From Watersipora subatra (Eukaryota > Bryozoa > Gymnolaemata > Cheilostomatida > Watersiporidae), in assembly GCF_963576615.1 (NCBI RefSeq), contig NC_088712.1, positions 28,301,870 through 28,365,869 of the forward strand: a stretch of 64,000 nt of DNA, given 5' to 3'. How positions within the stretch are numbered: position 1 is the first letter of the stretch; the number at the start of each line of letters is the position of its first letter. The position numbers were made by a program, and so were the translations under genes. The notes under the pieces are model-generated. The model was not told where the DNA came from and did no database searches. It was given only the letters and a program-made list of their open reading frames with translations. This document shows positions 2,816 through 56,200 of the stretch, one piece after another.

Positions 2816-2829
2816 GGACAAAGGACGTG

Positions 2830-22345: not shown

Positions 22346-22566
22346 ATCCGGATCCAGAGAGCTTAAATGGCTTCACTTAATTTTATAGATACATCAAAAT
22401 GAGTCTTTGTAAAAATTCATTATTTTCATGTCTTCCATTCATTATTTTCATAATTGGTTTTGTGGTATTGCTGCCACTTGATTGTTATTATTATATTATT
22501 ACGATTATTAATTATCATCATTCAGTACTGCGTTACTACTAGTACTAATCACAACACACTCACCAA
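22346..22566. other. AT-rich spacer
   Basis: Low-complexity TTATTA-rich sequence between the Gypsy remnant and the LINE end. No gene. Confidence 0.5.
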
Positions 22567-23337: not shown

Positions 23338-24894
23338 TAATCTCATGATGCCCAAATCCTAAAATAAATGATTTCAAATAAATGTTGTAATTAAAACAGC
23401 TAAATGCTGGAATATTGATAGTGCATAAAGTATTCATAACCAAATCTATCAACAATGAGGCACTCAAAACCCTTATACCACTAGGTAGTTTTTTAGAGTG
23501 TTCTAAATTATCTGAGGTAAGATCTGAGGTAAGATGTCGTCTTACACTGAGTGTTACGAAACAACTATTTTAACCAATATGCGTTCATATAGCCAACCCA
23601 AAACAATTGTCAGAGCTCAGAAATATCTGACTCATCACGATATCTAGCCAACACACACACCTCTAGCTGTAACTCTCAGAGAACAGCAACACTCTACGTT
23701 TATATAACCGCAGCGACTACGTTGTGAACCACAATAAAATGCACAACACACTGTAATATAAATACGATCAATCCGCGTTATCTTTTACAAGTAGAGAGAA
23801 TACCATTTTTGTTTTAGGGATTGAGAGTTAACGATTAAAACGGCGTTCTTGATTTAGCGACTAAAAGACAACTAACAAATCATGGATAACTTGAACGATG
23901 TACAACATATAAGTGAGATCTGCTGCACCAACGATTTTGTGTGCCATTTTCGCTATCCAGTGATGAGGTTTATCGCAGATCCGTTAGTCGTTTACAAGCG
24001 TCACAATAGAGTTAACTCCTAATTGAATCGATGCAATGCACGCAGTAATTATATACGCAGCGTCAAAATTACGTGGATTATTATATTTAGATGTTAAAGT
24101 TATTTAGATATTATTGGATTATTAGAAAATTCACTATATGAATTATACACCATAAATATACGGTAGTTTCCATTGAACAAATTTCCATAAACAATCGCGA
24201 ACAAATGAGACTCTTATATACGAGGATAGGATACTTTTAGGATAGGATACTTTTACAGTTTCCATTTAATTTGGTAATATGCCTGCAAATAGAGGCCTTT
24301 TTGTTATTTTGTTATCAGCAAAATAAAAAAATTACTAACATATGGGTTACAGAGATTTCGCCTACGATATGATTTGGCTACAAGAGCTTTTGTCTATAAG
24401 AAAGTTCAGCAACGAGAGGTTTCGTCTACGAATGGCTGGAGGTTACGTCTATAATTTCTGGATATTACGTCTACAGCTACCGTATATACACACACTAGGA
24501 AAGCAAGGTTGCCGACAACTTTGGCATAGTACGACATATTAAAAGACCGTTGTCATGCGGTTACAGGAAATAAAGACGCTATCTTTGCTACGAAACTTGC
24601 GTATTTGTAAGTTCTTTATGAATTCGTACATAATTGTTTGATCGATCGTACCCTCCGATTTTTTATTTATAATTAATGTAGCGTAGGTATTTTGATGCAA
24701 AATGTTCAAAAACAGTTTGATCATATTCTGAAAGCTGATTATTAAACTACATGTACATATGTACGCAGACATGAATCAGTGATCAGTTGGTTTTGTGGAT
24801 TATGGCATTTTTAGCAGACAGGGAGCAGACAGTTGTTGAGAGTCACTAGTTTGGTGCATAACATGTATAAATTGTTATCTAGTGTCTCTCAGGA
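23338..24894. other. no gene recognised
   Basis: AT-rich. A short direct duplication (GGATAGGATACTTTTA) lies near 24222-24255. A degenerate run of about 22-bp units with TTACGTCTA or TTTCGTCTACGA cores spans 24357-24485. No gene was supported. Confidence 0.5.
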
Positions 24895-27422: not shown

Positions 27423-28223
27423 ATGTTATCATTCTGTTACAATTCCTAAAAAGTACACATCTAACCATAACATCAAACTATGCCATTTCAAAAGATTTCA
27501 GTGTGTAGGATGTAAAACAAATAAACATATTATATATATATATATATATATTGTATATCCTTAAAGCTGTTTAGCTTTCAACAAATTAAATTTTGCATCA
27601 TAACTTGTATCTTGAATCAAGAGAACACACAATGTGCTGTAATGTATATTATTACACCAATATGTCATAGAATTTCATAAAAAAACATGTTGCATGCATA
27701 TCAAAATGGTGTGTGAAGTATTTTTATGGTACAGCAATTACAACATAGTGTATGTTTAACTGTTAGAGCTAGTACAAAATTATAAAGTTAAATCAACACC
27801 ATGTTAAATATAAATTTACTTAATAGGTGAAAACTTACTGTTAATATTATAATTAATCATATTTTTTCCCAATATTATTTTCGACTAAAGTTTTGAGTTG
27901 GCTCGAGTTTTGACAGTACAGATAACTGAAGCAAGTGAGAATGTTGCTTGACTATAATGATTGGGTCGGTAGCTTAAAAGTGTAGTCCACACTAGCTGAT
28001 CTTCTTTGCTGAATGGCCAGCAGGAATATTTTCCATAATCTAGTAATGGACCCTACTGAGTCAACACGCTCAGGTCAAGCGGAAATGCCATTATGACATC
28101 TGTAGTTGCAAAAAAGTCTGACAGAATAGAGACGTGTAATGCTACAACTTGCAATTCATTTTAAACGTAGAGATTGTTAATTGCTTCACAAGTTCTGAAT
28201 TATAGTTTCACAGTTGATAGCTG
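27423..28223. other. caspase upstream region
   Basis: AT-rich, with a TA microsatellite at 27531-27551. No TATA box could be assigned with confidence. An in-frame TAG at 28218-28220 closes the caspase frame upstream, so the protein starts within this exon unless a splice joins after 28220. Confidence 0.45.
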
Positions 28224-29327
28224 ATGATGACGGAGGATCTAGAGTATCCGATCGATGGGAAGGGTGTGTTTGTGGTCATGAAACTGTGTCAGCATTTCTT
28301 CAAAAAGCCATGGGATAAGCTTTCTACCCTCGATTATGATACTGACAAGGACAGTATCCTTGAGACGTTCAACCTAACGCTATACTCCCCCAACCTTCTA
28401 TATGCTGAGAATTTAACTAATGAAAATAGTAGCAACAACAACTTTGATCGCTTCATGGACACATTTAGCCAACAGTTAGAAGAGAAGGATGAAGCTAACA
28501 AGGAACCCTCCTTTGTGATGTTTGTATTGATGAGCCACGGTCTGGTGAATGGAGGCGTATTGCTATCTACACCAGAATCCGAGAAGAATAGGGTGGATCC
28601 GTGCGATTGTGAGCCCCACACGGGTACTGGCGAATGTTATGTGCGCTACATTAGCACGCATATTATGAAAAAGGTGTGCGATGTCTATGGACATTTGTCT
28701 ATTCCTAAAATCTTTGTCATACAGACTTGCCGCGGTGATGAACGAGGCGTTATTCTGGCAAATGGTGTGGACACAAGGATTTCTCGACTAAATGGAGTAG
28801 CTCCTTCGGAGCTTGAACTTTTTATATTGAACACTTCTGACTGTTTCTTATTTCGACCATGTTTAGAGGGTCATGGTTCCTGGGCCGGCGTGGAGGGTTC
28901 GAAGTTTGGCTCATTTTTTATAAAACATTTTTGCCAAGCATTAAAGCAGTTGAGGGAATCGGCTAATCACTCTGCAGAAAATCGCAAAAAGCTTTCTGGA
29001 GTTAGAGGAAGTAAAGATTGTCCTCATCCGTTTGAGCGTTTATTAAGCCTTGCAAATGAAGAAAACATGGAAGGTGGCTGGCTAGTGAATATTTGTCAGC
29101 GGACGACAGAGCTGGTGACTAACTGGCTCATCCATGAGATACCTGAGAGCGCTAAAACTGAGCCAACAGATGATAAACAGCAACCGCACTTCAGCAGTTC
29201 TCTCGCTTACAAAGTGTCCTTTCTGAAAATTCTGAAGACTCAATGGGAAGAGAAGGACCAATATTTGGCGGAGTGGTATGACAAGATGCAAGGAACAGGA
29301 AGATCAACCTCAGCTCAATCATTCTAA
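28224..29327 (+). CDS. caspase-family cysteine protease, single exon
   Basis: The 367-residue frame is intact. Caspases cleave proteins, normally after Asp, in cell death or signalling. The catalytic His is in FVLMSHGLVNGG (about residue 104) and the catalytic Cys in FVIQTCRGDE (about residue 170), where most caspases have QACRG. The small-subunit region follows, with FGSFFIKHFCQAL at about residue 230. No CARD or DED prodomain is present. The p20 domain begins almost at the start. The segment usually reading RxGTDxD is LDYDTDKD, so the Arg of the S1 pocket appears replaced. The SWR region reads LFRP and is followed by about 11 extra residues before GSFF. ATG 28224 is followed by a second ATG at 28227. 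Intronless structure could mean a retrocopy. It might be a divergent effector caspase or a weakly active homologue. Confidence 0.9.
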   Translation: MMTEDLEYPIDGKGVFVVMKLCQHFFKKPWDKLSTLDYDTDKDSILETFNLTLYSPNLLYAENLTNENSSNNNFDRFMDTFSQQLEEKDEANKEPSFVMFVLMSHGLVNGGVLLSTPESEKNRVDPCDCEPHTGTGECYVRYISTHIMKKVCDVYGHLSIPKIFVIQTCRGDERGVILANGVDTRISRLNGVAPSELELFILNTSDCFLFRPCLEGHGSWAGVEGSKFGSFFIKHFCQALKQLRESANHSAENRKKLSGVRGSKDCPHPFERLLSLANEENMEGGWLVNICQRTTELVTNWLIHEIPESAKTEPTDDKQQPHFSSSLAYKVSFLKILKTQWEEKDQYLAEWYDKMQGTGRSTSAQSF

Positions 29328-32140: not shown

Positions 32141-32284
32141 CTAGAGTGGTTCCTCGCTGGCCGATAGTTGATCATCACATAATTTTATCATATGATAAAA
32201 TATGCTCTTTTCTTCATTCACAAGCTGTTTGATCATAGTGACATGTTGAGCATTCAATTGCTGACTATTGCAATCATTCAATGT
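32141..32284 (-). CDS. SETD3: SETD3 exon 12 (stop codon)
   Basis: Acceptor TTTATTTTAG. Encodes QQLNAQHVTMIKQLVNEEKS and ends at TAG (32141-32143). It matches LSVRAKMAIKLRLGEKEIL. The family's long acidic C-terminal tail is absent. Confidence 0.85.
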   Translation of the reverse strand, partial: TLNDCNSQQLNAQHVTMIKQLVNEEKSIFYHMIKLCDDQLSASEEPL

Positions 32285-35200
32285 CTAAAATAAATAACAG
32301 CAGGATTTCTAACGATATATGTTGGGCTATTCACAGTAGAAGTCAATTCATATAGCAGCAACCAATTAGATATTACAGCAGTTGACACTGTGACAAGAGT
32401 TGTCACTAGGTGTGGCAATAGTTGACACTAGGTGTGACAGTGGTGTGGCTGATTGTCAGCTGCTATCACACCTTAGTGTCATACTTGGTGTCAACTGCTA
32501 GCTGAGCTAGCAGTTGTCAAGTGTACCAAGCGTGACAGGAGTTTAGTTTCAAGCTATAACAGCAGTAGGCACTAGGTGTGCCAGCACTAGACACTACGTG
32601 TGACAGCAGTGGACACTAGGTGTGACAGCACTAGACACTAGGTGTGACAGCACTAGACACTATGTGTGGCAGCAGTAGACACTAGGTGTGCCAGCACTAG
32701 ACACTTCGTGTGACACCAGTAAACACTAGGTGTGACAGAAGTAGACACTACATGTAGGTGTAACAGCAGTAGACACTTGGTGTGATAGCAGTAGACACTA
32801 GGTGTGATAGCAGTAGACACTAGGCATGACAGCAGTAAACACTAGGCATGACAGCAGTAGACACTAGGCGTGACAGCAGTAGGCACTAGGCGTGACAGAA
32901 GTAGACACTAGGTGTGACAGCAGTAGACACTAGGTGTGAGAGCAGTTGACACTAGGTGTAATAGCAGTTGACACTAGGTGTGATAGCAGTAGACACTAGG
33001 TGTGCCAGCACTAGACACTAGGTGTGCCAGCACTAGACACTAGGTGTGCCAGCACTAGACACTAGGTGTGCCAGCACTAGACACTAGGTGTGCCAGCACT
33101 AGACACTAGGTGTGCCAGCACTAAACACTCCGTGTGAGACCAGTAGACACTAGGTGTGACAGCAGCTGTAGACACTAGGTGTAACAGCAGTAGACACTAG
33201 GCGTGATAGCAGTAGACACTAGGCGTGATAGCAGTAGACACTAGGGGTGATAGTAGTAGACACTAGGTGTGACAGAAGTAGACACTAGGTGTGACAGCAG
33301 TAGATACCAGGTGTGACAGCAGTAGACACTAGGTGTGACAGCAGTAGACACTAGGTGTGACAGCAGTAGACACTAGGTGTGACAGCAGTAGACACTAGAT
33401 GTGTCAGCAGTAGACACTTGGTTTGACAGTAGTACCCATCAAGGATGACAGCAATGTAGAACCTAACTATGATAACAGTTGACACTAGGTGTGACAGGAG
33501 TGGACACTAGGTGTGACAGCAGTTGATTAGTTGTGACAGCAGTTGACACTACGTGTGACAGTAGTAGACACTAGGTTTGACAGCAGTAGACACTAGGTGT
33601 GACAGCAGTAGACACTAGGTGTGACAGCAGTAGACACCAGGTGTGACAGCAGTAAACACTAGGTGTGATACCAGTAGACACTAGGCATGACATCGATGTA
33701 GTACCTAACTATGATAACAGTTGACACTAAGTGTGACAGCCGGAGACACTAAATGTGACAGCTGGAGACAGTAAGTGTGACAGTCGGAGACACTATGTGT
33801 GACAGCAGAAGACACCAGGTGTGACAGCAGTAGACACTAAGTGTGACATCAGTAGACACTAGGTGTGACAGCAGTAGACACTAGGTGTGACAGCAGTGGA
33901 CACTAGGTGTGACAGCAGTAGACAATAGGTGTGACAGCAGTAGACACCAGGTGTGACAGCAGTAGACGCTAGGCGTGACATCAATGTAGTACCTAACTAT
34001 GATAACAGTTGATACTAAGTGTGACAGCAGGAGACACTAAGTGTGACAACCGGAGACACTAAGTGTGACAGCCGGAGACACTAAGTGTGACAGCCGAAGA
34101 CACTAAGTGTGACAGTCGGAGGCACTAGGTGTGACAGCAGAAGACACCAGGTGTGACAGCAGTAGACACTAGGTGTGACAGCAGTAGACACTAGGCATGA
34201 CAGCAGTAGGCACCAGGTGCGACAGCAGTAGCCCTTGGAAGGTAAGATGATTTCATGCAATGAAACGCTTGTGACCGGTGAATACTTCATAGCAGAGACA
34301 CAAGTTGCCATAGTGACTCACCGAGCAGTAACTCCTAAGTAGTAGCTCACATCTAACTTTTAGATAAGACCATGACTTTTGTTCGTTATCCTTACGGATA
34401 GCTTTTGAAGGGTCTTTGCTGGCCATCATTTCTTCTAAAGCAGCTGCATCAGAAAGGTAAGTGGGTATTAGCACGGCCCCCTATCTCCAAACCAGCCACA
34501 GGCAGCTACTTTATATTAAACAAGGCCACTAAAAAGACTAGGGAAATATGCTAACTATTCTGTGAAGATTCCTACATACCAGTTTTAACTTTCAACCATT
34601 AGAAAATGAAATGTTCAGATTTTAGTCTACATAATCACTTGAAAATGTAATTTTACAGCTGTTTGATTTACATATTTAAAATGAGGATTAATTTAATATA
34701 TAATTTATGGCTATTGACTAAATTAAGTACAGTAATTAATTGACCAATAAGTAACAATGTTGGAAATGAGAATTTTAGTTTTTTCAACAAAGACGTTCAG
34801 TTATCTCGTACAGCACTGTAGATAGCAGCTCAGTAAATGGTTCATGAAGTACAAGCAAGTAACTATTATTAGAAATTGTCCTCGTTACTACTACAACTAG
34901 CCCAAGAAAACAAATCACTATATTGAACCTAAGGCTATTGTGTGATGTTCAGATCTTGTCGGGATTCAAATGCGTAAAAAATTGTTTCTTGAGGTATTAC
35001 ATTTGCCATGTTTGTTACAGGACTATATCGTGAATCCTGGTTAAAACCCTCGCTATATTCGCTGTGTTTCCATGCTGCAAATGGGTTCGGAGTTGCTTGC
35101 TGCTGATGATTTTGCACCCTATCGTTTCACTGATATTGTATATCTTTTAAAGATGTGCGATATATCCCTCGAAATAAAACTTAAAGTAGAATCACTTTTG

Positions 35201-38200
35201 GGTCACGGTCACTTTTCAATGTGTAGTCCACTAGTTGTACTAAAAAGTAAATATTGTGTCATACGAGCAACTCATCCTTGTCATGTTAATGTGAAGGCAA
35301 AAGTCAAGTAGAAAACGGGTCGCCAAAAATGCTTGCTTTTAAAATTCCGTCTGGTTTCTGAGATTTAATCTCTTAAACACTTCAAGCAATGCCCTGCTCA
35401 AATGGTAATCTTAGAAGTTTAGTTTTCCATGCAAATGCACCACAATCTATCAGATTAGAAACTCAATAATGCGCCTTCGGATGCATTAAGAACAACTGCC
35501 CTTGATGAAAGCATTCATGGATTGTTATTGTGAAAGCAGTGGAGTGATTTTACCTTGCTGAAAATCTACATGTCTGCAGTGCAATCCCATGCATCGCCGA
35601 GCTTACTGCTGGTCGTAAATAAAAGCCCCCTGCATATTCATACCCCCTATGTACACCACTATGTACACCCCTATATATACCCCTATATATACCCCCTATA
35701 TACACCCCTATGTATATACCCCTCTGTATATGCCCCCTATGTGTATACCCCTTATGTATATACCCCCTATGTATATACCTCCTATGTATATACCCCTATG
35801 TATATACCCCCTATGTATATACCCCCATGTATATACCCTCTATATATATATATATCCCTATGTATATACCCCCTATGTATATACATGTACCCTCTATATA
35901 TACCCCTATGTATATACCCACTATGCATATATACCCCTATGTATATATCCCCTATATATATACCCCCTATGTATATATCCCCTATGTATATACCCCCTAT
36001 GTATATACCCCTATTTATATACCCCCTATATATATACCTCCTATGTATATACCTCCTATGTATATACCCTCTATATATACCCCCTATACATATATTCTCT
36101 ATATATACACCCTTATATATACACCCTATGTATACCCTCTATATATACTCCCTATATATACTCTCTATATATACCCCCTATATATACTCTCTATTTATAC
36201 CCCCTATGTATAGCCCCTATGTATAGACCCTTTATGTATACTCCCTATATATATATACCCTATGCATACCCCAAACACCAATGGACCCCTACGCGTATCC
36301 CATGCATATGCGTACTAATCTATTTGTTGGGACGCATATGCGTGGTACCTCCTATCTATCGGTTTGCACAAACGATGAAGTAACTTTGGCAAAACTTCAC
36401 TATATAATAAGAGTCATGTTCAGTCTGTCCGAAAACACGGTTAGAAGTACGGAAAAAGATTGCATCATAAAGGGATCGATCCTGCAACAAGTGAGTAAGC
36501 CGTCCTGCCCGCTACCAACTTCGCTATTCTTTCATCTTCAATCGTTTTAGAACTATTGTGCATTACAGTATTGTGAATTATGATAACTTATTGACAAGCC
36601 TGACGATCTCTCATGGCACACACCGGACTGAAAGGCTACTAGTAGTAATAAAATATGACTAAACAATACGGAGATGTTCACACTTGTATGAGCGTTACAT
36701 GAACTGACAGTGAAAACAATTCTTAATCGTGTTACTTGGTTAAAGATAGCAATAGTCCACTGTCCACTTTCAAATTCAGCACAATTATCAACTAAGCCTA
36801 AATAAGCAACCGTCCCTACTTTATATGTCCGTGATGAACAAGAGTCTAACCTTCACTCGCGTGGAAGACTCGAAGAAATGTTAGAAGATTGTCTGGCAGA
36901 ACTTCATCTCCTGATTTCAAGTGGAACACCTGAATGTCCTCAGACCCAAACCTGTGTGTAGACCAAACACAGTAGTTAACCAGGGTTAATGACTCCCTGA
37001 TAATAACAAACTCTGTACTGTAAAACCTCATTGAGGCAGCTCAGTGGAGGTCAAGTTCACACAGAGTTTAATAGCAAATGCTGAGAGATGCATGCAGAAT
37101 GTTGATTACACAAGCGGACTGTCTATGAAATTATATGTGAAAAAACAAAATTCTGTTTTTTAAAACATAATTTTGAATTCTACAAATATAATTTTGAATC
37201 CTACACACAACCCAAAGTTTGCTGCATCCATTCTGTTCTGATGAAACTTTTTGGTGCCAATGTATTCTAACAATAGCTGCCGATAGTATAAGCACCTGCG
37301 TTACTCATTTAATAACATAAGATATGGCTCATCATCCAATAGTACAGATGAGACCATGCAGCCTCCTATTGGCTCAGATTAGACTACCAGCTTCTCATTG
37401 GACAAAATTAGACCAATCAGTGTCCTATTGGCGCAGACTAGAGCAATTTGAAGAACTCTTTGAAATCTTATGATTATTGCTTTGCTGACACCCAGATTGG
37501 GTCACCAATGTGACTTGTCATACAGGAGATAACCTTTCATAAAGCAGATAACTTTTCATACAAAAGATAACTTCTCATACAAAAGATAACTTCTCATACA
37601 AATGATAACTTCTCATGCGGGAATAACTTCTCATACGGAGATAACTTCTCATACAGGAGATAATTTCTCATACAGGAGATAACTCCTCATACAGGAGATA
37701 ACTTCTCATATAGGAGATAATTTCTCATACAGGAGATAACTTCTTATACAGGAGATAACATCTCATACAGGAAATAACTTCTCATACAGGAGAGAACTCA
37801 TACAGGAGATAACTTCTCATACAGGAGATAACTTCTCATAGAAGAGATAACTTCTCATACAGGGGATAACTTTTCATACAAAAGATAACTTCTCATACAG
37901 GAGATAACTAACTCCATATCTATTTCACTAAGTTGCATTTGGTAAATCTCAGAAGAAGCATTCACAAGTGTTGCACGTTCAATTTTTTTTTTAAACTGGC
38001 TGATCGAGTCAAAGAATACTGCTAGATCAGAACTTAGTAGAGACATGGGGAGTCTCTGTAAACTTTAGTAGAGACATGGGGAGTCTCTGTAAACTTTAGT
38101 AGAGACATGGGGAGTCTCTGTAAACTTTAGTAGAGACATGGGGAGTCTCTGTAAACTTTAGTAGAGACATGGGGAGTCTCTGTAAACTTTAGTAGAGACA

Positions 38201-41200
38201 TGGGGAGTTTCTGTAAACTTTAGTAGAGACATGGGGAGTCTCTGTAAACTTTAGTAGAGACATGGGGAGTCTCTGTAAACTTTAGTAGAGACATGGGGAG
38301 TCTCTGTAAACTTTAGTAGAGACATGGGGAGTCTCTGTAAACTTTAGTAGAGACATGGGGAGTCTCTGTAAACTTTAGTAGAGACATGGGGAGTCTCTGT
38401 AAACTTTAGTAGAGACATGGGGAGTCTCTGTAAACTTTAGTAGAGACATGGGGAGTCTCTGTAAACTTTAGTAGAGACATGGGGAGTTTCTGTAAACTTT
38501 AGTAGAGACATGGGGAGTCTCTGTAAACTTTAGTAGAGACATGGGGAGTCTCTGTAAACTTTAGTAGAGACATGGGGAGTCTCTGTAAACTTTAGTAGAG
38601 ACATGGGGAGTCTCTGTAAACTTTAGTAGAGACATGGGGAGTCTCTGTAAACTTTAGTAGAGACATGGGGAGTCTCTGTAAACTTTAGTAGAGACATGGG
38701 GAGTCTCTGTAAACTTTAGTAGAGACATGGGGGAGTCTCTGTAAACTTTAGTAGAGACATGGGGAGTCTCTGTAAACTTTAGTAGAGACACGGGGAGTCT
38801 CTGTAAACTTTAGTAGAGACATGGGGAGTCTCTGTAAACTTTAGTAGAGACACGGGGAGTCTCTGTAAACTTTAGTAGAGACATGGGGAGTCTCTGTAAA
38901 CTTTAGTAGAGACACGGGGAGTCTCTGTAAACTTTAGTAGAGACATGGGGAGTCTCTGTAAACTTTAGTAGAGACATGGGGAGTCTCTGTAAACTTTAGT
39001 AGAGACATGGGGAGTCTCTGTAAACTTTAGTAGAGACATGGGGAGTCTCTGTAAACTTTAGTAGAGACATGGGGAGTCTCTGTAAACTTTAGTAGAGACA
39101 TGAGGAGTCTCTGTAAACTTTAGTAGAGACATGGGGAGTCTCTGTAAACTTTAGTAGAGACATGGGGAGTCTCTGTAAACTTTAGTAGAGACATGGGGAG
39201 TCTCTGTAAACTTTAGTAGAGACATGGGGAGTCTCTGTAAACTTCAGTAGAGACATGGGGAGTCTCTGTAAACTTTAGTAGAGACATGGGGAGTCTCTGT
39301 AAACTTTAGTAGAGACATGGGGAGTCTCTGTAAACTTTTGATACATTTATTTCTTGACCAAAAAGCAAGTGCCTGATGACTTGAGGAAGAAATGTTGCTC
39401 TTCATTTTAGGCCCTAAATATACGCACTTTACTGTATCAATGGGTTAACACATCCCAAATAAAGAGTGCCAACCAGAATAATTAAATCTAGAACTTTTTC
39501 CAAAAAACCAAAGAAAAAACCAGAAAAACCTGGTTAGAAAAACCAAAAATTGTTTAATAAATTTAAATTTGATGACAAAGTACAAAATTGTAGGGCTACA
39601 TTAAAAACAGAGAAATATTCGATAAACATCATCGGAAAAGAAACATAGCCCTAGATCACTTCATAAACAAATAGTATGGATTTCCAAAGGTGCCATAATA
39701 ATAATAGTAATAACAAGTAGGATAGACTGAGATCAGACCAGAGGAAAAAACCGCAAGAGATAAGAGCAACCTAACTACTTTTTTTTAATCACGTCTTGAT
39801 TCTTCAGCACATCTCACTGCAGTCATACCTCTTCATACGAGTGCTCCAACATGCGAGAAACTCGATGTACGAGCTGACTTTCTAGCGAATTTCTTCCTTG
39901 AGATACAAGCTAGTTCTCGATGCCCGCTACACTATTTGACCAAGTATGCGAGCGGACGCTTGGGAAAACAGCATTGCCCGGTCTTTCTTCTCGAATCAGT
40001 TTGAAAGAAGTTTTTAAAAGGTCAGCTAAAAGTTATAGTGAACGAGAGGTAAAAGCGCATAACCGAAAACGGATATATAAAAATAAGACGATAAAATTAA
40101 AGTAAGTTTAGTAAAAGATTAAAACTTATCTTCAAGTGTGTGTTAGTGAGCTAAATTTATTCAAGTTGTATTCAAAGTTTATGTTAAAGGGTCTATTCTC
40201 ATTAGGGTCACAAATGTTTAGTGTACCGAATGCGTTGCTCTGAAGTCTCTCTCAGCCGTTAGCCGCGACACCTGTCTAGAAAGTAAAAACTTCATACAGT
40301 ATTGTACATTGTGATGTCACATTTTATTGCAGATCATAGCAACTAAATACGTATTATAAGTACTGAATCACAGGAATTGAAAACGTCTTTTTACTGTAAT
40401 ATCCCGTTTAGGTGGTGTTTTCACCACCTAAACTATTGTAGTAATTAAATATTTTATATAGGAAATATTGCCTTGAAGCATGAGTAAATTGACTTACAAG
40501 CCGAGTCCCAGAACGCATTAAGCTAGTATGTCGAGGTATGACTGTACTAAATTATAATACAACTGAATTCTCCCTACTAGTCTTAGATATGAGAAGGTAA
40601 CTCTAATAAATTTAACATTACCAAACCACCCTAACTTAGTCAGTAATATGGTGGACGCAACAGTTTAGGGTAAAATCTATTTTTTTGTTTTAGATTTTTA
40701 GCATGGCTTATCAGAACCAAAGTAAGTGTAAGTTGAACTGGGTATTTCTTCCATCTATTACAAGTTATTTGGAAATTGTTTCAACAAATATCATTGGCCA
40801 GCCAGTCCTGAGCAGGGATATCATTGGCCAGCCAGTCCTGAGCAGAGATATCATTGGCCAGCCAGTCCTGCGCAGGGATATCATTGGCCAGCCAGTCCTG
40901 CGCAGGGTATAATGAGATGAAGTTTGGAGTGATCAAGTTACTAAAGTTACTACGCTTTTATAGGAGAATTTTGTGACGAAGTTTGCTTAATCAACTTTAG
41001 CAGCATTTTGATATTTACAAGAGCAAATATCATTTTTTGTAAAATATATCGAATATTAAAAAGAGAAGACAACTCTTTGAACTTTCAAAAATATAACAAA
41101 GGGAAAACGTTGAGAGGTTGACTTGCAACAAAATTCACATTACAGTTATTTGATATGAACAGATTCACCATATCTTACTCTGTTGTGTTGTAGGTGCAAA

Positions 41201-44200
41201 ATATGTGGAAAGGGGATTACAAGCTCTTAAAAGCTCAAAAACGAACAGAAAATCGCAGCCACACGAGACCGCCGTAGTTTGGTTTCCCTTTCCAAAACGG
41301 CTCAAATGTGATGTAGTTGTGAGAGATGGTTTCTGTTTAAACTTTCTTGCAACCTTATTCGTCGAAATATTTTCACAAACATACTTCACGCATTCAATAA
41401 AACCATGTCTATTGTTCATATGCGTCTGTTTTATCATCATTGTAATGCTGTCACTTTTAGCACTGATATCTTATAACTTACCGTAAAAGATCGTTTAATT
41501 TTTTAACCATAGTTCGAATGAGTACATATCATTGTCTGATAATAATGACGAGCCTGTCGGTCACCTGTGATAATCGAAAAGTGCTGCAAAAATTATTTGC
41601 GAAGTATTGGGTCACATGATTAGAGAACAACTTGACGATTGAATAATGCCGAAGCAAAACTGTAAAGTGGCGAGCATCTTTATTTGATACGGGGTCTTCA
41701 GTAAAACCCGAAGTGTTTGTCATAAACTAGTACTACGATAAGTTTTATATTGAGCTTTGTATTGGCCTTTCAATTCACGTGAGAACATCATGTGACAAGA
41801 CGATAACCAAATTTCGTGGTTACGTCATCGAAATAAAGAGATTCCAATCTACGGCCGCTTTTCGTTTTTGAGCTTTTAATAGCTTGTAATCCCATCTCCA
41901 CATATTTGGCACTTGCAACACAACAGAGTAAGACATGGTGAATCTTTTGATACCAAATAACTGTAATATGAATTTTGTTGCAAGTCAACCTTTAACATTA
42001 CCAAAGCGCCCTAACCCAGTCAGTAACATGGTAGACGCAACTGTTTGGGGTAAAATCCATTTCTTTATGTTTTAGATTTTTAGCATGGATTAGATATCAG
42101 AACAAACGTAAGTGTAAGTTGAACTGGGTATTTCTTCCATCTATTCCAAGTCATTTGGAAATTGTTTCGAAAAAGATCATTGGCCAGCCAGTCCTGCGCA
42201 GGGATATCATTGGCCAGCCAGTCCTGCGCAGGGATATCATTGGCCAGCCAGTCCTGCGCAGCGTATAATGAGATGAAGTTTGGGCTGATCAGGCTACTAA
42301 AGTAACTACGCTTTTATAAGAGAATTTTGTGACGAAGTTTGCTTAATCAACTTTAGCGGCAATTTGATATTTACAAAAGCAAAAGTTATTTTCTTGTAAA
42401 ATTTATCCAATATTAAAAAGAGAAGACAACTCTTTTTCAAGCCCATTGAACTTTCAAAAAGATAATTTAGTGAACAGGTTTAACAAACAGGTCTCGAATC
42501 GCTAAATACAAAGCTCTGACTCACCCCAACTCTGTCAGCAAATACAAAGCTCTGACTCATTCCAGCTCTGTCAGCGAATACAAAGCTCTGACACACCCCA
42601 ACACTGTCAGCAAATACAAAGCTCTGACTCATTCCAGCTCTGTCAGCGAATACAAAGCTCTGACTCACCCCAACACTGTCAGCAAATACAAAGCTCTGAC
42701 ACACCCCAACTCTGTCAGCAAATACAAATCTCTGACTCACCCCAGCTCTGTCAGCGAATACAAAGCTCTGACTCACCCCAACTCTGTCAGCAAATACAAA
42801 GCTCTGACTCACCCCAACTCTGTTAGCAAATACAAAGCTCTGACACACCCCAACTCTGTCAGCGAATACAAAGCTCTGACTCACCCCAACTCTGTCAGCA
42901 AATACAAAGCTTTGACACACCCCAACTCTGTCAGCGAATACAAAGCTCTGACTCACCCCAACTCTGTCAGCAAACACAAAGCTCTGACTCACCCCAACTC
43001 TGTCAGCAAATACAAAGCTCTGACACACCCCAACTCTGTCAGCAAATACAAAGCTCTGACTCACCCCAACTCTGTCAGCAAATACAAAGCTCTGACTCAC
43101 CCCAACTCTGTTAGCAAATACAAAGCTCTGACACACCCCAACTCTGTCAGCGAATACAAAGCTCTGACTCACCCCAACTCTGTCAGCAAATACAAAGCTT
43201 TGACACACCCCAACTCTGTCAGCGAATACAAAGCTCTGACTCACCCCAACTCTGTCAGCAAACACAAAGCTCTGACTCACCCCAACTCTGTCAGCAAATA
43301 CAAAGCTCTGACACACCCCAACTCTGTCAGCAAATACAAAGCTCTGACTCACCCCAACTCTGTCAGCAAATACAAAGCTCTGACTCACCCCAACTCTGTC
43401 AGCAAATACAAAGCTCTGACTCACCCCAACTCTGTCAGCGAATACAAAGCTCTGACTCACCCCAACTCTGTCAGCGAATACAAAGCTCTGACTCACCCCA
43501 ACTCTGTCAGCAAATACAAAGCTCTGACTCACCCCAGCTCTGTCAGCGTCTTCTTCCTTAAGGCCACTAGACTGTCAGATTTGGCAAGTCCTAATAAATA
43601 CGTAGTTACAGGCAGCCATAAGAATACAGATACATGTTTATCATGTCTTTTTCAGTCTAACAATAAATAAATATGCAGGCGGATAGATTCATAATCACTT
43701 GCTCAAATAATAGACTGCCATTTGATGTAAATGCCCCTCCTGTCCGTTGATACAAAGTCAGGAACATAGACTGAGTTGTTGTGTGTATCACTTCATTTAC
43801 ATGTACTTACCTTTTAAACACTATACACCATAAACACAATATATAAAAACAACAGAGTAGTTAACTTCTCAGAGAGAGCACAACTCTTTTTACTTATCTA
43901 TTAAACACGGCAGAAGCTTATTAACTTATCGCCTAGTTCCTGAAGATCGCAAGAGGGCATCCATGAGCTTATTCTGTAGATTACTATATACGCTTATTTA
44001 TACATCGATCTTATGTGAATGTCAAAAGGTATTTTAAGACAACAGTTGCATTTATTGTTGGTATTACTTATGTATAAGATGACTCCGCTATTCCAGAATA
44101 TTCTGGAATAATGACATCAAATTATGTCGTTCAAAAATAAAAAACATAACTTTCAAAATTTTAAGGTTTCTAGTAAATGCAATAAATAAAGTTCTTCAGC

Positions 44201-47200
44201 GTGTTTTAAACGAGGTTTGGGATGAGAAGCTTATTCTTTTTACAACGACTGCAAGTGCTGCCTGTTCTCAATCACACATTTGCTACTCCGTGGCTCATCA
44301 ACAAAAAAGAGCAATCGGGTGTGTGACAAGCAGTATACATACAGCAAAGTTTATTTAAGTGTACAAACATTAGCCTTCATTCGAAATTTGCACGATATAT
44401 AAATTGTCAAGTTCCAAACTCACCGGTGGCAGTACAGCACAACAATAATGGCTGCAATGCTATGATTCAAAGCGCCGCCATAAGCTTGTTTACCGGTAAT
44501 ATGTACCATAATCTCACTGATATCTGATACCAGTAATTCTATGAAGTAACTTTAACATTTATACAAGGAAGCACGATTATTATGAGTGTTTGTTAAGGCT
44601 TCATAACATGTATGTGTATATTGCCTCTATAATAACAAAGTTGGCTTTTCATATTCACATTACATCAACATTACTCGTGTATAAGTTGACCAGAAAAATA
44701 TTGCCTTAAAATCATCTACCAGAAACTTAACTTATGCATGGGCATGTAGAGTAGCTAGCGGAATGCCCGATGTTACACGGGTATTAAAAAAAGCTTACAG
44801 ACGGTGGCAGGTAATGTAGTTGCTATTGGCTAATTTAAGCAAGCTAGTGTCCATATTGCTAAACTTGCTAATAAAAACCGTGAGAGCAAGCTTTAGTGAT
44901 GTTGCGCGTAACGCAGAGTCGCTATGCGTATTTTAAGCCAGATAATGACTCATATCGACCCCTTGCATCCATTGCATCCTGTGTAGCTTAATAGGGTAGC
45001 TGTTCACCTTGTGAACCGGAGGTTCCGAGATCAAATCTTCTGCGATAAGAATTTTTCATTGCTAGATTCTAGTTGCTATAGCTGGACAGACACCCTTGAG
45101 ATTTATTTCTATAAATGAATCTGAGTTTAATATAGACTGGTAAACTCATTTGAGAGAACACAACTCCAACATAAAAACAACATAGCCCTTGTTAATATTT
45201 GACATACCGAGTTTCAGTTGAACGACATTGTTGGGATTTTCGGGATAAACAAAACCACTGTGTACGAAGAAGTCGCTGTTAGGTCTGAAACCGTAGCATA
45301 TGTAGACTTGGTTCCCTGGTTCATATGCCCCGTCGGCATAGCAATGGCATTTATTCTCAGCTTCATCGTAGTCAGTTAACATCTACATTCAAGCATGCTA
45401 TGTTGATATGGGTTATTATAAACATATATATCACAACAAGGTTACAGGATTCACAGTCCTGCATAAACTATGACCAGAATATTTGTATTTATCCTTCCAA
45501 ACATGACAAAACATCGTTTTCATGGTATTCCGAGACACCAACATACAACATCCACCATCGTAGGTTTCAGTTCATGAACTTTCTGTTACTACAACCTTCA
45601 ATTTACTATCCTGACTTCTCCGTAATACTATTAGATTACAGCTTTTAAAGCATGTCTGTGGTCAACTCACTCAATAATTCCTGTTTTCAGCATTTTAACT
45701 CTTTTCTTTCTTTTGGCATGTAACGAACAGCTTCATTTGGTTGATAATTAGCAAAGACAAAAACAGGTTATTCATACAACCAACTGAGGTTTCACACCTG
45801 AAGTATTTATCACTCTGAGTACAATTACAGTAACAGGTGTACATTTGTCAAAACATCAAATGTTGGAGCAAACACATATTATTATTATTAGAGCATACTT
45901 TACTTTGTATAATTTGTTCAATATTTTGAATGTTGATATGCAATATATAATCTTAATATACAATACAATATACAGTACATATAATATAAATATTATTTAA
46001 TATCTTAATGATAATATATACTAGAAATTCCCCTGTCATACAGCCCACGACCAAAGTGATATTGGAAAAAAGAAAGGGTACTGATGGTTGAGAAATGCAA
46101 TATTAGCAGTCAAATGGCACTGCAGAGCAATAGGATAACTGCAATGGTAGCTGTAATGTACTGGGTGTGGGTGTTATTATATACAACAAACAGCAATAAT
46201 GAAAGGACAAGATTATATGTTTATATCTCTCCCCCTGCAATAGGAGAAATGCAATATTGGCAAATATTAGAAGTAAAATGCACTGATATTATTAGAATAA
46301 CCAATATTATTAATATAGTAATAATAGAAAACCAATGCACAACTTTGTTTACAATTCCAAACGTCATAGCTAACAATATCACGAAGTTGTGATATTTATA
46401 TAGATTTTTAGAAAATCTATTTAAAAAAGTGTTTGGTCATGACAAACAGCAATAATGAAAGGAAAAGATTATATGTTTATATCTCTCCCCTGCAATAGGG
46501 GAAATGCAATATTAGAAGTAAAATGCACTGATATTATTAGAATAACCAATATTATTAATATAGTAATACAGTAATAATAGAAAGCCAACGCACAATTTTG
46601 TTTACATTTCAAAACGTCATAGCTAACAATATCAAGAAGTTGTGATATTTATATAGATTTTTAGAAAATCTATTTAACAAAACTATTTAGAAAAAATAAT
46701 AACAGTAACATATTGCCCATCATCAATGTTGTTAGTGTGACTATAACACTTCAATAGTCAACCAAACTTGTAATTAAATATTGTAATAATCTCATAAGAA
46801 TTGTTAGAAAAAAATATTATCGTCATTTCCTTTACTTTCACTGCGTTGTAGATCAGTTAGAATAACAAAGTACTCAAAAGTGTCTAAAATGTCAGTTACT
46901 TTGAAATCGGCAAAAAAGAAACGATTATATTTCAGTACTTCTACGTTAATTACAAAAGCCTTCAGCAATTTTACAATGCGATAGACTGGCGAAATGTGCA
47001 AGTTATTTTTTATGCATGTTATTTTTTCGTGAAATGCGCACGACTTAATGGTTCTATTCTCTGTTGCTCGGGGTTTCAAATGCCGGTCTTAATTTTGATA
47101 AAATCAAGGCTTGGCAAGTGTTAATAACGATTTTCGGCCAAATTAATGTCTATTTGTGTATATTTAAGATATTGTCGACAATTTACATAGACTTGGTAAC

Positions 47201-50200
47201 ATATTTAAATAAGTTTATATGTGTTTTGTATCGTTATTATACTTAAACGACTCCATTGAAAAATGGTTAAATTTGTTGATGAGATTTCGGTACAAGGGTT
47301 TGCGAGGTTGTTGATGAATAATTTTCGTGAGTTGTGTGCACATGCATTTATCATAAAACTCTCAAACATTCGCTCCACTCGTGTTTGATCGTGGGATAAC
47401 CAACATTTAATGATAAATACTTCAGGAAATTAAATGAAACAATAATGCAGCTGCATCATATAAAACTAAGTGAAAAACTAAATTATATGTAGGACACCAA
47501 ATTAATATAGTAATAATTAATAAAGGACATTTTTATTCCCTTAATGTTCAAGTAAACAAAATGTAGCCTGAGCGATAAAGGAAACATAATGTGTAGATGC
47601 CCCAACAGGAAGATGGAGATAGTCTAACTTAGGCCATATTATGTAAACTTGATATTACCGTAAAACCTCTAATTGAACGCCACCTCCAATTGACCGCTAC
47701 CCTGAGAGAAGGGTTGAAAAATAGACCGCCACTCTCCATTTGACCGCCACTGACGTTACTTGATTTTTACGAGCAAAAATATCAACTGATCAGTAGAAAA
47801 GTGTCCACAAAATTGTTTAAACTTATGATGGTAGATGGAACTTTGAAAGCAACATCATCGAAATAACTACTAACTGTCTCAGGCTAATAGTAGTTCTTTG
47901 TTAAACGTGGTCCTAATACTTCAAAGGACAAGCATATAAAAACCGGTTTGCAAGTTTTAGACCAAAGGTAACGTTTACCGAGCATATTTTTATTGTGCTA
48001 AATACAAAAAAATTGTGCCAAAAATTGTTTGGACACTAATATCGACTAGTTTAGCAATGCAGAAGAAAGAGTTGAGACTGGAAGATATTGTGGATGGTAT
48101 TGGATAACGAAGATGTTCGTTCTATAGAAAGCAACAATCAGAACGCAGCTACCTGAGCAAATGACGGAAGTATTTTTGTTTTAAAAACGGTAATTTTTGT
48201 TTCTGCATGTAATATAAGTATGATTCGTTTATGTCACTTGTTCATGAATATAAATTTGTATCATTTGATGGATTATTATTGTATAGATTTATAAATAGAC
48301 TTATAAATATGCAGGTTTATAGCATGTTATTTAATATCATCATTGCGACTATCTTAACACGACTTAAAATAGATCATCTTCATAACTCCACTTCTATTGC
48401 ACATAAAAAGCTAGTTGTGGCTGTAAACTGTAGCAAACATATCAGTGAGTGCAATAAGCCTTTATTCAACAATGTTAAATACAAATATAAAATAAAAATG
48501 TCTTCAAATTTAGAATGTAATAAAAATTTAAAATGCCAACAAATTGCAAAGAAGGACACAGGCTATAATACCATCGCAGGTCAATTGCAAGCAATAGATA
48601 TCAACTGTTAGAGATATTTCTCGGTTTCTCAATGTACATTCATCAAGAGATCTTTGACAAGTTAGAGGTAAGTTAGCAAATTTATTGCATTCAAAAGGTT
48701 TAATATCGCTCCATTGAAAAAAGAGAGCAAAATATAGGCGACATTCGCTTTGCCCGTAATAGGGCTAAATTTATCTTCCGAAAATACTGACGAGCTATTT
48801 GAAAGATAAACCGCCAGCCTCTATTTGAACATCGCCTCTAATGGACCACCAGCCTTTATTTGAACGCCGCCTTCAATTGACCGCCAGCCTCCATTTGAAC
48901 ACCGCCTCCAATTGACCGCCACCGTAGAGGAAAGATTGAAAAATAGAGTGCCATGGCATTCAATTAGAGGTTTTACAGTAGCTATATTTAGTAGACACTC
49001 TTACAATGTAAACGATCCGTTCTGGGAACGTTTACATTATAGGGAGTTTGTGTTATAAGAACAGTAAAATACATGTAAATTGCCTAATCCGTTCAAAGAT
49101 CTTTCAAAACTCACCTTTTGGCTAGTGAAAAAGGCACAAAAATAGACTCAATTTTTTAATTTATTGGCTCTACCGTGGCCTGTAGTATTATTGGTTTGTA
49201 TCAACAACTTTTCTCCTTTTTCTTATCACTTTCACTTAGTTAATGGTCCATGACTAGGGTAGCTTTACAATAAGTTAGGGGGAACGCACACCTACAACGT
49301 CCATTTACACCATTTTGTTCACTTTTTCTAGACAGCAGGCTTTACTCTGCAAAGAGAAAACAAAAACATTTTATGTCTAAAATAAAGCAAAACAACAAAA
49401 TATTTTTACTATAAAAATAGCGGTACCGCCTGCTCATTGCCTATCGTATCCAGAGGTCAAGGTTAAGATAAAAAAGAACTTTTAACAATACTCCAACTTG
49501 TGACATTCAGATTGACAGACTGACACTTGCATCAATCAATCGTCTTTTGAGTATTTCTGAAGAATTGTGCGGCTACCGATCCTCTGTGCTTTATCGACAC
49601 AACTGACGATCTCTCATGGGGAACTAGATTGCCAGGATACAACAAAAATATACAGAGTTTTCTCTCAAGTGGGACCAGAGAGAAAGCGACATTTTTACGA
49701 CTAACTACAAAATTCCCATTATTCAAATCAAATTTGAGAACTCGCACTGATTTGACATTTTACATTATATAGAATCTATACGTAACACAAAATTTTTACA
49801 TAAATTCTTTACGTTATTTGGAATTTACATTATAGGAAGTATATGCTATAGGAGTGTCTATTGTATACATTAAAATAAAATAAATCAACTATTTTTCGTA
49901 CATTTTAACTATTAAAATACTATTAGATTACAATTGCTATATTATTGGCAATTGCTATATTATTGACAATTGCTAAAAGCTATTGATAACTGCTAATAGT
50001 TACTGACAAACCAAACTCTATAAAAAGGCTACAGGAAGTATCTATACCCTGCATAAGTGCGAGTACCCACCTCACCCTGTCGATGGTTGCACATATCCCA
50101 CAGAGGAATGAGCGTGAGATGCCCCATACTGTCATCCTCTACTGCCTGCACACTGCTACCAGATATTCTGATATAGTTCTGCCTCGTCATCACAGTGCTG

Positions 50201-53200
50201 ACAGCCCACCTTCAAGATAGATGAACCCTATGCGCTTGCAACTAGTTTGAGTGAACTCAGAGAGAGACAAATCTTAACATTTCTAGCAAGATACTCACAA
50301 TTGCTAGTCAAGGTTGTACTATAGGTAAGTGGTATTATGGGTCGCACTTAATCTATTGCCCAAGCATGCCACATCCTTTAGTCATTGACCTCAACAAAGT
50401 CTCTTCCTATTTCTACCCACATGTTCTAGGGCTAAGAATGTAGAACCATAACTATATTAGAGATTTGATCCCATGTCATAGTAATAGCAATGCTCAGTGT
50501 TCCAAACTATGGCAACTCTCCAATCAGCTCTGCTATATTTGGGCACTGCTTGTGATGCTAATAGAACAAGAAGGGAATTTGTGGCCAAAACCCCGAACAA
50601 TTTTACTAAATCCAAATTGAGTATAAATTTGATAGGCTCTTTTGTAAAGCAGGCCAACTACAGCAACATACGATATAGTAAACTACAAAACATGAAATTA
50701 ATAATTATCTTTTCTTTTATTTCAACTACTAGTACAGAGAGAGCGGACAACTCATTAAAAATGTCATATATTACTTCAATTTCCCAAGCTTATGTGAACA
50801 TTGGTCCAAATCAGCATTGTAATAAACAAAGAACGTAGAGGTTGGGTTAGGAATTTACTTATCGCTACAAAACTGGCCTATCTTGGAGGTCTACAGCTAC
50901 ACAACTACTATATAAGGGCCAACTGGAAATGCCGTAAAGGCACCTGTAGAGATCGTAGGTAAAGTTCTTAGCCATCACAGGATACTGCCCCCTCCTCTTG
51001 TTTATGAAAAGAGACCAGAAGTAGGCATACTGCCTCGCTACGTTTCTCTGCATGTGAATGCTCTGCTCGTAGGTTGGGGAGCCTTTCAATAGAGCGATCT
51101 CGTTTGGGGGGAAATAGAGAGGCGTATCATATGTCTCTGGAAGAACATCTGTTACAGAAACATATTAGCTACAAACAGTCAAACTTCTCCAGGTGCACAT
51201 GAAGTTAATTCAATCTACGATGTGCTTTGTGTATTAAATCAGTTTATGTTGGAGCATATATTTCTAAAAACATACAGTGTAATTCAAGTAATTTGTTATG
51301 CAGATTACAAGACTGCAGTAACTCTGTAGTATATACTGGAGGTGATTAAAAACATTAGAACAAATCGATTATATCAAGGTCTATGCTTTCTACACTTTTG
51401 CTTACAAATGATAACTCTATGCTCTCTACATCTTTGCCTACAAATGATAATTCTATGCTGTCTAGACCTTTTCATGGAAAACTGAGCAGCATTTGTATTT
51501 GCTAACATTTTATTGTCCAAGCAACCACAGCAGACGCTCCGGTAACGTATATTTCCTGTAACGTAAATTACAGATAACATAAAAAAATTATGTGAAGTTT
51601 TTGCTTCCTACTATGTAAAAAATTCTATATAATGTAAAGTGTCAAGTCGGGCGAGTTTTTAAATCAATTTGAATGTTAGTTTATTTCGCCGCACTTGTGG
51701 AAGAAAAAACACTGTGTGTTTAGCATTATATCTATGATATATAACTTTCGCGACATTATAGTTCGTCGTAAGAGATTGTTAAATGTGCCGACTAAAAGGC
51801 GAATAGAATAGCTGCGCAATTGTTCATAAATAAAAAGGCAATCGATTAGTGCAGGTCGGTCTACCAAGCTGAACATCACAGGTTGGAGTGTCGCCGAAAA
51901 ATATCTTTATCTTCACCTTGACAACTGGATAGTGATAGATGACGAACAGGTAGAACTGCTTTGTATAGTAAAAACTTTTGTTGTCTTGCCTTACTGTAGA
52001 CATACAAAATATTTTTTCTTAGATCTACTTTGCAGAATAAACTTTCCTGTTTAGAAAAATAAGCAAATCGTTGTAAATGACCGCCAAAAATCTGGAGGCC
52101 CTATCAACTTGTTGTAAACTTACCACAATCATGGTCTATTAAACCAGTGAGATTGATCATAAAAAGGAGAAAAGGTGTCGATGCAAACCAATAATTCTGC
52201 AGTTGCGGTACAGCTCGCAAATTAAAAGAGTTGAGTTAAGTTTTTCCTTTTTGCATGGCCAAAGAGGTGAGTTTGGAAAGATCTTAGAACGAATTAGGCA
52301 ATTTACATGTATTTTACTGTTCTTATAACGTAAATTACCTACAAAGTGAATGTTTCTGGAATGGAATATTTACGTTATAGGAGCGTCTACTGTACTAGAG
52401 GTCTGGTTGAGCAAAATGTACTATGACTTCCAGTTTGCCACTTTTATTATTTCTCGAGTTCAGTAGCAGTGTCGCTAGCACTTTATTCAGCTCATATGTA
52501 AGCCAACCGGTTAAAAAGGTTATGAAAATGACACAGCACGCACCAACCATCTAGAATATCAAAAAGAATGAACAGCCAGTGATTCGCCCAGTGTCGAAAA
52601 AAAAACTTGCCCTCATCAGAAAAAAAGCTATTGTGTCAGAAAGAGAGCTTGGTCCATTTCAAGGAAAAAGCTTGCAACAAGTCAGAAAGAAAGCTCTCTT
52701 TTTCAGAAAAAAAGCTCGCCAAATGTCAGATAGAAAGCTCTCCCATGTCAAAAATAAAGCTTGCCCCATGTCGATTAAAGAGCTCGCCTTATATCAAAAA
52801 GAAATCTTGCCCCATGTCAAAAAGAAAGTTTGACCTATGTCAGAATGAGAGCTTGCCCCATTTCAAGGAAAACGCTTGCATGAAGCCCAAAAAATAGCTC
52901 TCCCCATGTCAGAAAGAAAGCTGGTCCCATGTCAGAAAAAAAGATCGCTCTGTCGGAGCAAAAAGTGATGCAGCTTGCCATCCTATTTTACGTGATAAGG
53001 CAGCTTTGTGATGACAGCATACTATCTTTCTTATAACATCACCTCTGAGATATTCAATCACCAGTAGCCAAAAAGGTAAACAGAACAATGCTACGCTATC
53101 AGGTTGGAACACAAGCTATGGCATTTAGATCCGCAATGGTTGACCATTTCAGTAAAAACATCTGTCATTTGTCTGTAACTCATACAATGTGACAGTGGGC

Positions 53201-56200
53201 TGCTGTACCATGCAGGATTTTATGAATTAGTGAGATAGCCAATGAGTATATCTAGTTACCATGGCAACAATAATTTCCTGTTTAGCTTAAAATATAAACT
53301 GACCTAGATATGGCTTCCAATATGAACCCGAGCCTTTGAAGCGCTCGGAAAGGAGGTGCAGAGACAGGGCTATGTTGGGCATTTGAGAGGCAATGGGATC
53401 CGTCCTCAAGAGCTCACCTGAATAAAATTTCCTGATAGCTTTTAACGACGAACTTACACAACATCTTAGTAGATTTTATCAGAAAGTATCCATGTTTTTC
53501 TATTATTTCTATTCTAAGCGCACTTCAACTGCAACCAAGTTTCATCGATTTTGACCATGAAACATATTGGTAGTCAGATCACTTTAAACATAAAAAACAA
53601 TCACAAATAATAATAGAAAAACATAAGTTCATCTTGTAAAATCAAAAAGACAAACAAACCATTCCAAGAATTCAGGCCACACTGTAACATGCCGATTACA
53701 ATGGAAAAATCGAGTGACATGCTGGCAAACATTGACAGGCATAGACAGGTCTGATATGATGCACAGACATTGCCAAGCAAGGCCAGGTTCTTTGGACTGA
53801 CCTATGCTAGATAACTCTGTATCAGCTGTTAGCATCATAGACCTGGGAATTGACATAAACTCCTCATGGGGCTATAAAACAAAGTTATATAATTATGACA
53901 TGGTAGATAATATCTTATATTATTATATCATTACGACATAGTAGATAATATTTTATCAATTTTATTCAAGGCAACACAGTAATCACTTATTGCAAGTAGC
54001 AGAACTCTGTCTAAAAACTACGAAAATTCGAATATTGGTTCGAAAATACTCTGTCCGAAAATTCGAATATTTAAATATTTGAAACGAATCCATCCCCTTT
54101 GTAGTGATTTGAGCCAGTTTTAATTCGATTTTAAGTTAAACAGACGCAAAAAAGGTTTGTGAGTTAATTTGAAAAGGATACAGCAATTTAATGGAAATAA
54201 TTTTTTTGGGTTTTGATATGTTCTGCTTATTGTTGTTCATCAAAACACGTAAAATATATCCAACACATTTACGGATATAACACAAGGATTGTTAAGGAAA
54301 GAAACACATGTAGTGTACACCATTGTACATCTACTTATTACTAGTTCATGTATACATTATAATATATATAACATCATTATTGTTCTATCTGTTCCATCTA
54401 TACTGCTCTTATGGTAACATTAGAGCCTAATAACTCTGTACCCAATAATTTGTTAAATATAAATATTTGTTAAGATAAATCATTGAATGAATCGGAATTC
54501 GATTTGTCCACATCAGACAAAGATTTGACTTGTTGGATATTAGTTGACATGAACAGGTGATTTGATTTTTTCATCAAATAAAAAAATTGATATGAACACA
54601 GCTCTAGCAAATAGTAATGGCGGCAAATTTAATGACATTGAAACGCTAGCACGTAATAGCTGTAAAGCAGAAATGCATTAACATCCTTTGTCATTAAAAC
54701 TGTTGTTAATCAAAAAGCTTGCAATAAAAATTGAATCTTTTTAATATATGTTCCTTTTTAATAAATCTATTATTTACCGTTGTTTTAGTTTGCATTTATG
54801 ATATCAGAGTTGTTCAGTCTTTATGCAAATTGAATTACTTTCTTCCAGTACATTTCCGATGTCACCAATCAGAAATTAGTGAATACCAAGCTAGATATCC
54901 TTCACTAGTCAAAATTTCAATGTACATTTTTTATGTTGCTTTTTTATGACACAACTTGAAGCAAACAAATCTTAATTTCATATCAATGGCATAGTTGTAA
55001 AAAGATGTAAGTTCATGGCGAGAATATTGAGTAGCGCTTATATAGCAGTTGTGGATTCTGGGTACTGAAGCTAAAATTGAGTCTATTGAACTTCTGCTGT
55101 GCCTCATATGTTCAGTCACAGATTCAGAGATATACAATATCAACTAGTATATATATTATATATATTATCATATTATATTAGAACATATAATATATACATT
55201 ATATGTTCATTAGACTTGTTTTCTTATGGCTTAGTGCTAGCCTTTAGTATTCAGCCTAGCATCTCATACATATAAAAAGGCCACTTGGACTCCTCAAGAT
55301 GGAAAAAATCCCCATCTAAAGCAGATTCACTCCCTCAAAGCCGAACTAGGGACCAGACCTCTCCTCTTAGGACTTTTTAAAGGTTATTCTTTTAGAGATA
55401 TCACTCATAACTGGAGGCTGAGCAAATAACCTCTACTTCTGTACTCAATAATTTGCCAAATATTTCCCAATCATTATTGAGTTATTTGGGTTTGATTGAC
55501 ACGTATCAGATATTGACACGTATCAATTGATTGGTTATCAATTGACATGAACAAGTGATTTGATTTTAAATCAAGTTAAAAGGTATAATTTGGGCATAGC
55601 TCACCAACTGAGCCATGCGGATGTGTAACTAGATTCTCTTCCTAAAGCAGAAATAATGGCCAAACACTCCTCTTCAGACATCTCAAAGGTCTGTTCATAA
55701 CTAGAAACTCAACAAATAACCTGAGCGCAAGCTAACAAAGTCCAACCTCAATTCTTTGAGTCGCTTGAACACCGACTCCGAGTCCTTCAAAGAGAGCCAA
55801 GTCTACTTTATCACATTTGGCTCCATTCTCAGTGCTCCACCTCATGAATGCTCTCAGTCTAGACTCTCTGCTCCGAGTGCCTGAATAGGAATACCGTTCT
55901 CTTTGACTCACATTCTTATCAACATTTACAGCAATTAGGCCCTATATACATAAGTCTCAGGGTTTGTTATTTGTCCAGTTATAGCGATAAAGTTTTAGAA
56001 ATGAAAAATCCGCTACGCACTGGATACCTTCGGGTCCTACTGGATACCTACGCTCCAACTCAGTACCTTCGGGTTCAAACACGGGCGAATTAACCCAATA
56101 AGCCACATGGCTTATTTGCCATACAATGAAATAATTGTCCGCATCAGACTTATGACGCAATCTTATCTCCTGACGCTAGATTAAATTATAATAACGGCAC

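Follow-up and report, generated by a model that had tools for sequence, protein, structure and literature searches.

A minisatellite that repeats the splice donor of exon 9 in the SETD3 gene of the bryozoan Watersipora subatra

Introduction

If an intron begins with a long row of near-identical splice donors, which of them is cut, and what becomes of a transcript that is cut at another one? This question is raised by a locus of Watersipora subatra located within the window analyzed here, i.e., the whole stretch of 64,000 nucleotides under study (GC content 36.6%). A preliminary description of this DNA had assigned the locus to SETD3 and had proposed either that the length of a donor-bearing array tunes the output of the gene or that a strong cellular preference for the first donor is required. 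According to the analysis reported below, the array is a true donor-capturing minisatellite and a second case of the kind described for human F7, and the gene probably tolerates it since the first donor prevails.

The SETD3 gene model

The assignment to SETD3 is upheld by solved protein chains, by a conserved domain and by a public protein prediction. All 10 of the 10 PDB sequences matched by a composite of exon translations are SETD3/actin-histidine N-methyltransferase (best E = 6e-37). Among the best 120 of 414 proteins (E <= 0.001), the top match was P0001, a predicted protein named "actin-histidine N-methyltransferase-like isoform X2 [Watersipora subatra]" by NCBI, with 98% identity over 97% of the query; some 14 N-terminal residues of this composite, and six before AALEE, are of intron origin, and its remainder is identical to P0001. 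The Rubisco-LSMT substrate-binding domain (PF09273) was found at residues 297-392 of the 393-residue query with 47 bits (cut-off 21.6). The SET domain (PF00856) reached 20.4 bits with the same query, just below its curated cut-off of 22.4, and the precomputed domains of P0001 comprise PF09273 alone. The features on which the argument rests are the following:

45208..45382, minus strand, SETD3 coding exon 8; join matches P0001
43533..43590, minus strand, SETD3 coding exon 9, 58 nt, coding for (G)LAKSDSLVALRKKTLTEL(G); join matches P0001, gapless alignment to solved human SETD3
43527..43532, minus strand, authentic 5' splice site GTGAGT, in array unit 1; P0001 equals the product of the 43533-to-36951 join
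42504..43547, minus strand, 36-bp minisatellite of 29 head-to-tail units; Tandem Repeats Finder and a separate unit parse
42792..43367, minus strand, two head-to-tail 8-unit (288-bp) blocks, units 6-13 equal to units 14-21, types CDEBFBDG twice
36952..43532, minus strand, intron 9, about 6.6 kb, with the 29-unit array and several other minisatellites
36851..36951, minus strand, SETD3 coding exon 10; join matches P0001
34322..34443, minus strand, SETD3 coding exon 11; join matches P0001
32141..32284, minus strand, SETD3 coding exon 12 with the stop; join matches P0001

Among the matches listed, a tblastn map of P0001 gives 12 coding exons, with exon 9 in ninth place. It is preceded by the acceptor TTAG and followed by the donor GTGAGT, which starts at 43532. 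The border between exons 8 and 9 falls behind the first base of a codon; that between exons 9 and 10 falls behind the second base, and exon 10 supplies the third. That exon 9 belongs to the gene, as had been assumed, is borne out by its presence in the predicted public protein and by its gapless alignment to the solved SETD3 chains. When exons 8-12 are joined via the first donor, the translation equals residues 289-487 of P0001 plus the stop, residue for residue. Since P0001 is the donor-1 splice of these exons, the annotated product, itself a prediction, uses the first donor, and the position previously given for the true donor, 43532, agrees with it. The Ensembl annotation of the W. subatra assembly is described as built mainly on transcript alignments (PMC12902671), but the name of P0001 is NCBI's.

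Architecture of the array

Tandem Repeats Finder placed the array at 42504-43547, with a period of 36, 29.0 copies, 93% matches and 0% indels. Each unit combines 15 exonic bases from the end of SETD3 coding exon 9 with 21 intronic bases from the start of intron 9, the consensus being GCTGACAGAGTTGGG on the exonic side of the border followed by GTGAGTCAGAGCTTTGTATTT on the intronic side. In the unit parse, GGG/GTGAGT (GGGGTGAGT) is intact in 19 of the 29 units; eight others contain GTGTGT, and in two the GT has been lost (ATGAGT). Most units are near-copies and not exact copies of the exon 9/intron 9 border, with GAGTTG in 25 of the 29 units as opposed to GAGCTG in unit 1. The earlier claims that a SETD3 donor is repeated 29-fold and that the unit is a copy of this boundary are thus confirmed. 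Within the window, GGGGTGAGT has 19 minus-strand matches, all of them within the array, and no plus-strand match. As this 9-mer is absent elsewhere in the 64 kb on both strands, a chance origin of the donor copies is ruled out.

Choice among the donors and the products of decoy use

The first donor (G43532) lies in unit 1 (43547..43512). Among the 29 unit positions, 43532 is the only one from which the frame stays open into exon 10. Cuts at the donor position of units 2-29 read LTELG* in the SETD3 frame in 28 of 28 cases, 18 of them with intact GTGAGT, and the premature stop is the TGA within unit 1's own donor. It had been claimed that any donor after the first adds a stop and that decoy use would truncate the enzyme in its substrate-binding domain. 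Both points hold in silico, the predicted decoy product ending after residue 366 of 487; of the 66 columns that do not vary among 10 aligned SETD3 proteins, 12 lie beyond this residue. The array's later donors also show, in silico, the AS-NMD feature of an alternative donor that brings a premature stop. A strong preference for the first donor, the other option proposed earlier, is consistent with the predicted protein P0001.

Why donor 1 should be preferred is less evident from its sequence. The 9-mer of the true donor is the same in all 19 intact units, 18 of which are among the 28 later ones; donor strength therefore cannot explain the choice of donor 1. The computed U1 pairing of donor 1 and of its 18 identical copies is -10.1 kcal/mol, the most favourable value among the seven SETD3 donors for which it was calculated, those of exons 5-11, and that of the GTGTGT form is -5.6 kcal/mol. 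RNA folding was considered as a cause of first-donor use. In local pre-mRNA folding, donor 1 was more accessible than the other 28 donors on average under either of the two settings used, but its rank shifted with the settings (5/29 and 2/29) and later units exceeded it, so this explanation was dropped. Because the intact donors do not differ in their 9-mer, position is likely to be the cue: donor 1 would be transcribed first and would close a short exon. When donors were duplicated in older in vitro studies, however, splicing often preferred the copy closest to the acceptor, which would predict the use of late units.

Growth and variation of the array

If units are classed by sequence, the array reads ABBCCCDEBFBDGCDEBFBDGBHDIJKJC. 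The block CDEBFBDG occurs twice in succession, and when the order of the units was shuffled 5000 times, no shuffle produced a repeated block of such length. The array has thus grown partly by whole-block duplication. Since a whole block of eight units has been duplicated, length variants, i.e., alleles of the array, are likely to exist. An alternate haplotype assembly of W. subatra is available (GCA_963576605.1), and reads and second-haplotype contigs are reported to have been deposited (PMC12902671), RNA-seq from colony tzWatSuba4 being listed with BioProject PRJEB62167. The C at base 11 of unit 1 is shared with units 23, 26, and 28 alone, all near the far end; for this reason both ends of the array look older than its middle. 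In unit 1, a 7-bp direct repeat, CAGAGCT, flanks the donor on either side and may have aided the first duplication. Ten of the 36 unit positions are variable, three of nine inside the donor 9-mer and seven of 27 outside it. Unit variation gives no sign of selection for or against the decoys, in what is a weak test with many variants shared by descent.

The minisatellite background of the locus

Minisatellites cover 47% of the stretch 32141-43590, 11% of 43591-55923, and 25% of 32141-59445. Because they make up 47% of this end of the gene, an array lying on a splice junction is not surprising, and a special targeting of the junction is unneeded as an explanation. In 32141-43590, a stretch which was picked post hoc and ends at exon 9, random placement would put about 2.8 of the six junctions under arrays, and one of the six was observed there. 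Over 32141-59445, one of 22 SETD3 junctions is overlapped by an array, the outermost junctions being only roughly placed. If anything, then, splice junctions are spared by arrays.

The other intronic minisatellites of SETD3, in introns 9-11, are likewise tandem arrays but are built from other units, and only the 29-unit array overlaps a splice junction. Most of intron 11 is filled by a 22-bp array of about 75 copies (32559-34231), which starts about 90 bases past the donor of exon 11 (34321, also GTGAGT); on the strand of the gene, this array contains 0 matches to GTGAGT. In intron 9, a very homogeneous 31-bp array (38034-39338; 42 copies, 98% matches) is perhaps young. One 30-bp unit (ATATCATTGGCCAGCCAGTCCTG...) occurs in the same intron at both 40788-40907 and 42176-42261 with flanks that are similar in translation, as if a larger array-containing piece had been copied.

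Other features of the window

A 12-bp tandem of ATCTGAGGTAAG on the plus strand (23510-23535, 2.2 copies) has two donor-like GAG/GTAAG sites. This tandem, with its GAGGTAAG, was considered as a second donor duplication and set aside, as no adjoining coding exon was recognized by eye. Four open frames on the plus strand were likewise classified by eye: a retroelement integrase-like frame at 2811-4283, a BED-finger/hAT-type transposase-like frame at 14829-16660, a frame at 22549-23256 that resembles the end of a non-LTR reverse transcriptase, and a long, caspase-like frame at 28221-29327 (...IFVIQTCRGDERG...).

Comparison with human F7 and other tandem donors

Intron 7 of human F7 carries 5-8 repeats. 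According to the passages of PMC6627357 that concern this intron, its true donor lies in the first of several closely similar repeats at the end of the exon, and the most upstream donor alone is normally used. Mutation of this first donor is described there as causing exon skipping and the use of downstream cryptic donors, the repeat in which they lie being left unspecified, and as leaving no functional protein encoded (PMC6627357). The copy number of the 37-bp F7 repeat is reported to be polymorphic in people (PMC4183524). The likeness of the two genes is one of layout: in SETD3, too, the authentic donor lies within the first repeat unit (43532, unit 1), and later units carry near-identical donors, with an identical 9-mer in 18 of the 28. 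Copy-number polymorphism and the exclusive use of the upstream donor are reported from F7, whereas in SETD3 one predicted protein uses donor 1. In F7, no functional protein is reported to be encoded once the first donor is mutated; for SETD3, a stop after residue 366 of 487 is predicted at all 28 later positions. Besides the different gene and phylum and the larger number of units (29, and fewer in F7), the SETD3 array differs in its unit length of 36 bp, a multiple of three, so that the use of a later donor would add an in-frame stop, TGA, instead of shifting the frame.

Donors also compete at a single exon end in tandem alternative 5' splice sites, e.g., in 4-nt pairs, but these are close pairs and not a minisatellite as in SETD3 (PMC2423196, in its account of such sites). 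The preliminary description had been aware of no earlier example of this kind in SETD3. As far as the gene is concerned this stands, as no case of SETD3 with a minisatellite was found in the full text of the openly licensed literature; the kind itself, however, has been described, in F7 intron 7 (PMC6627357). Beyond F7, no donor-bearing minisatellite was found in openly licensed full text, a paper on chicken MUC2 having been set aside.

Possible origin and consequences of the array

We consider the following scenario, taken as a whole, to be very probable. A 36-bp stretch across the SETD3 exon 9/intron 9 border would have been tandemly duplicated and would then have expanded to 29 units via slippage or unequal exchange. 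As the unit includes the splice donor, this expansion would have produced a row of near-identical donors at the start of the intron. The spliceosome would take 43532, most likely because this donor is the first to be transcribed and the first to complete the exon, by a combination of 5'-to-3' oriented choice and exon definition, perhaps assisted by the repeated G-runs downstream. Any leakage to a later donor would run into the in-frame TGA and be removed by nonsense-mediated decay. The array may then be nearly neutral baggage, because decoy products gain the TGA and should be decayed.

Alternatively, a fixed fraction of transcripts might use decoys and be decayed, a fraction that would rise with the number of intact units, so that allele length would set the SETD3 level. 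Such a dependence would agree with the stop at all 28 later unit positions, with the exact match of 18 later units to the true donor and with the length alleles that the whole-block change makes likely, and the 37-bp repeat polymorphism of F7 intron 7 (at least seven repeats) is reported as a risk factor for stroke in young adults (PMC4183524). However, conservation at the donor positions does not exceed that in the remainder of the unit, unlike what might be expected for a selected device, and in F7 the most upstream donor alone is reported to be normally used (PMC6627357). The suggestion that array length tunes SETD3 output is therefore unsupported, and we regard it as unlikely.

Another possibility is that the repeated donors act as a platform for U1, jointly strengthening the definition of the short exon 9 or shielding the repeat-rich 6.6-kb intron from early polyadenylation, with donor 1 alone being cut. 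Nineteen strong U1-pairing sites lie within 1 kb at the start of the intron, and exon 9 measures just 58 nt. Yet the donor is the weaker GTGTGT (-5.6 kcal/mol) in eight units and its GT is missing altogether in two, and unit variation gives no sign of selection; such a role appears quite unlikely. It is very unlikely that the array works as a heritable rheostat, in which each extra unit would raise the chance of unproductive splicing and rapid minisatellite turnover would make SETD3 levels, and with them actin-histidine methylation, differ among colonies. HiFi reads are longer than 10 kb and hence span 1 kb. Although repeats are prone to misassembly and P0001 is a prediction, it is extremely improbable that the array was collapsed or expanded in assembly or that exon 9 is absent from the transcript, given that the assembly is reported to derive from PacBio HiFi reads with a primary QV of 63.2 (PMC12902671) and that exon 9 is represented in a public protein and can be aligned with solved SETD3 chains.

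The locus represents a natural experiment on how the spliceosome chooses among many identical donors, at intervals of 36 nt, in an animal only distantly related to mammals. Should all junction reads start from the first unit, a first-come, oriented choice of donors would be supported outside the vertebrates in the presence of 18 identical competitors. Should the junctions instead be distributed over the ladder, the output of the gene could be altered directly through repeat length.
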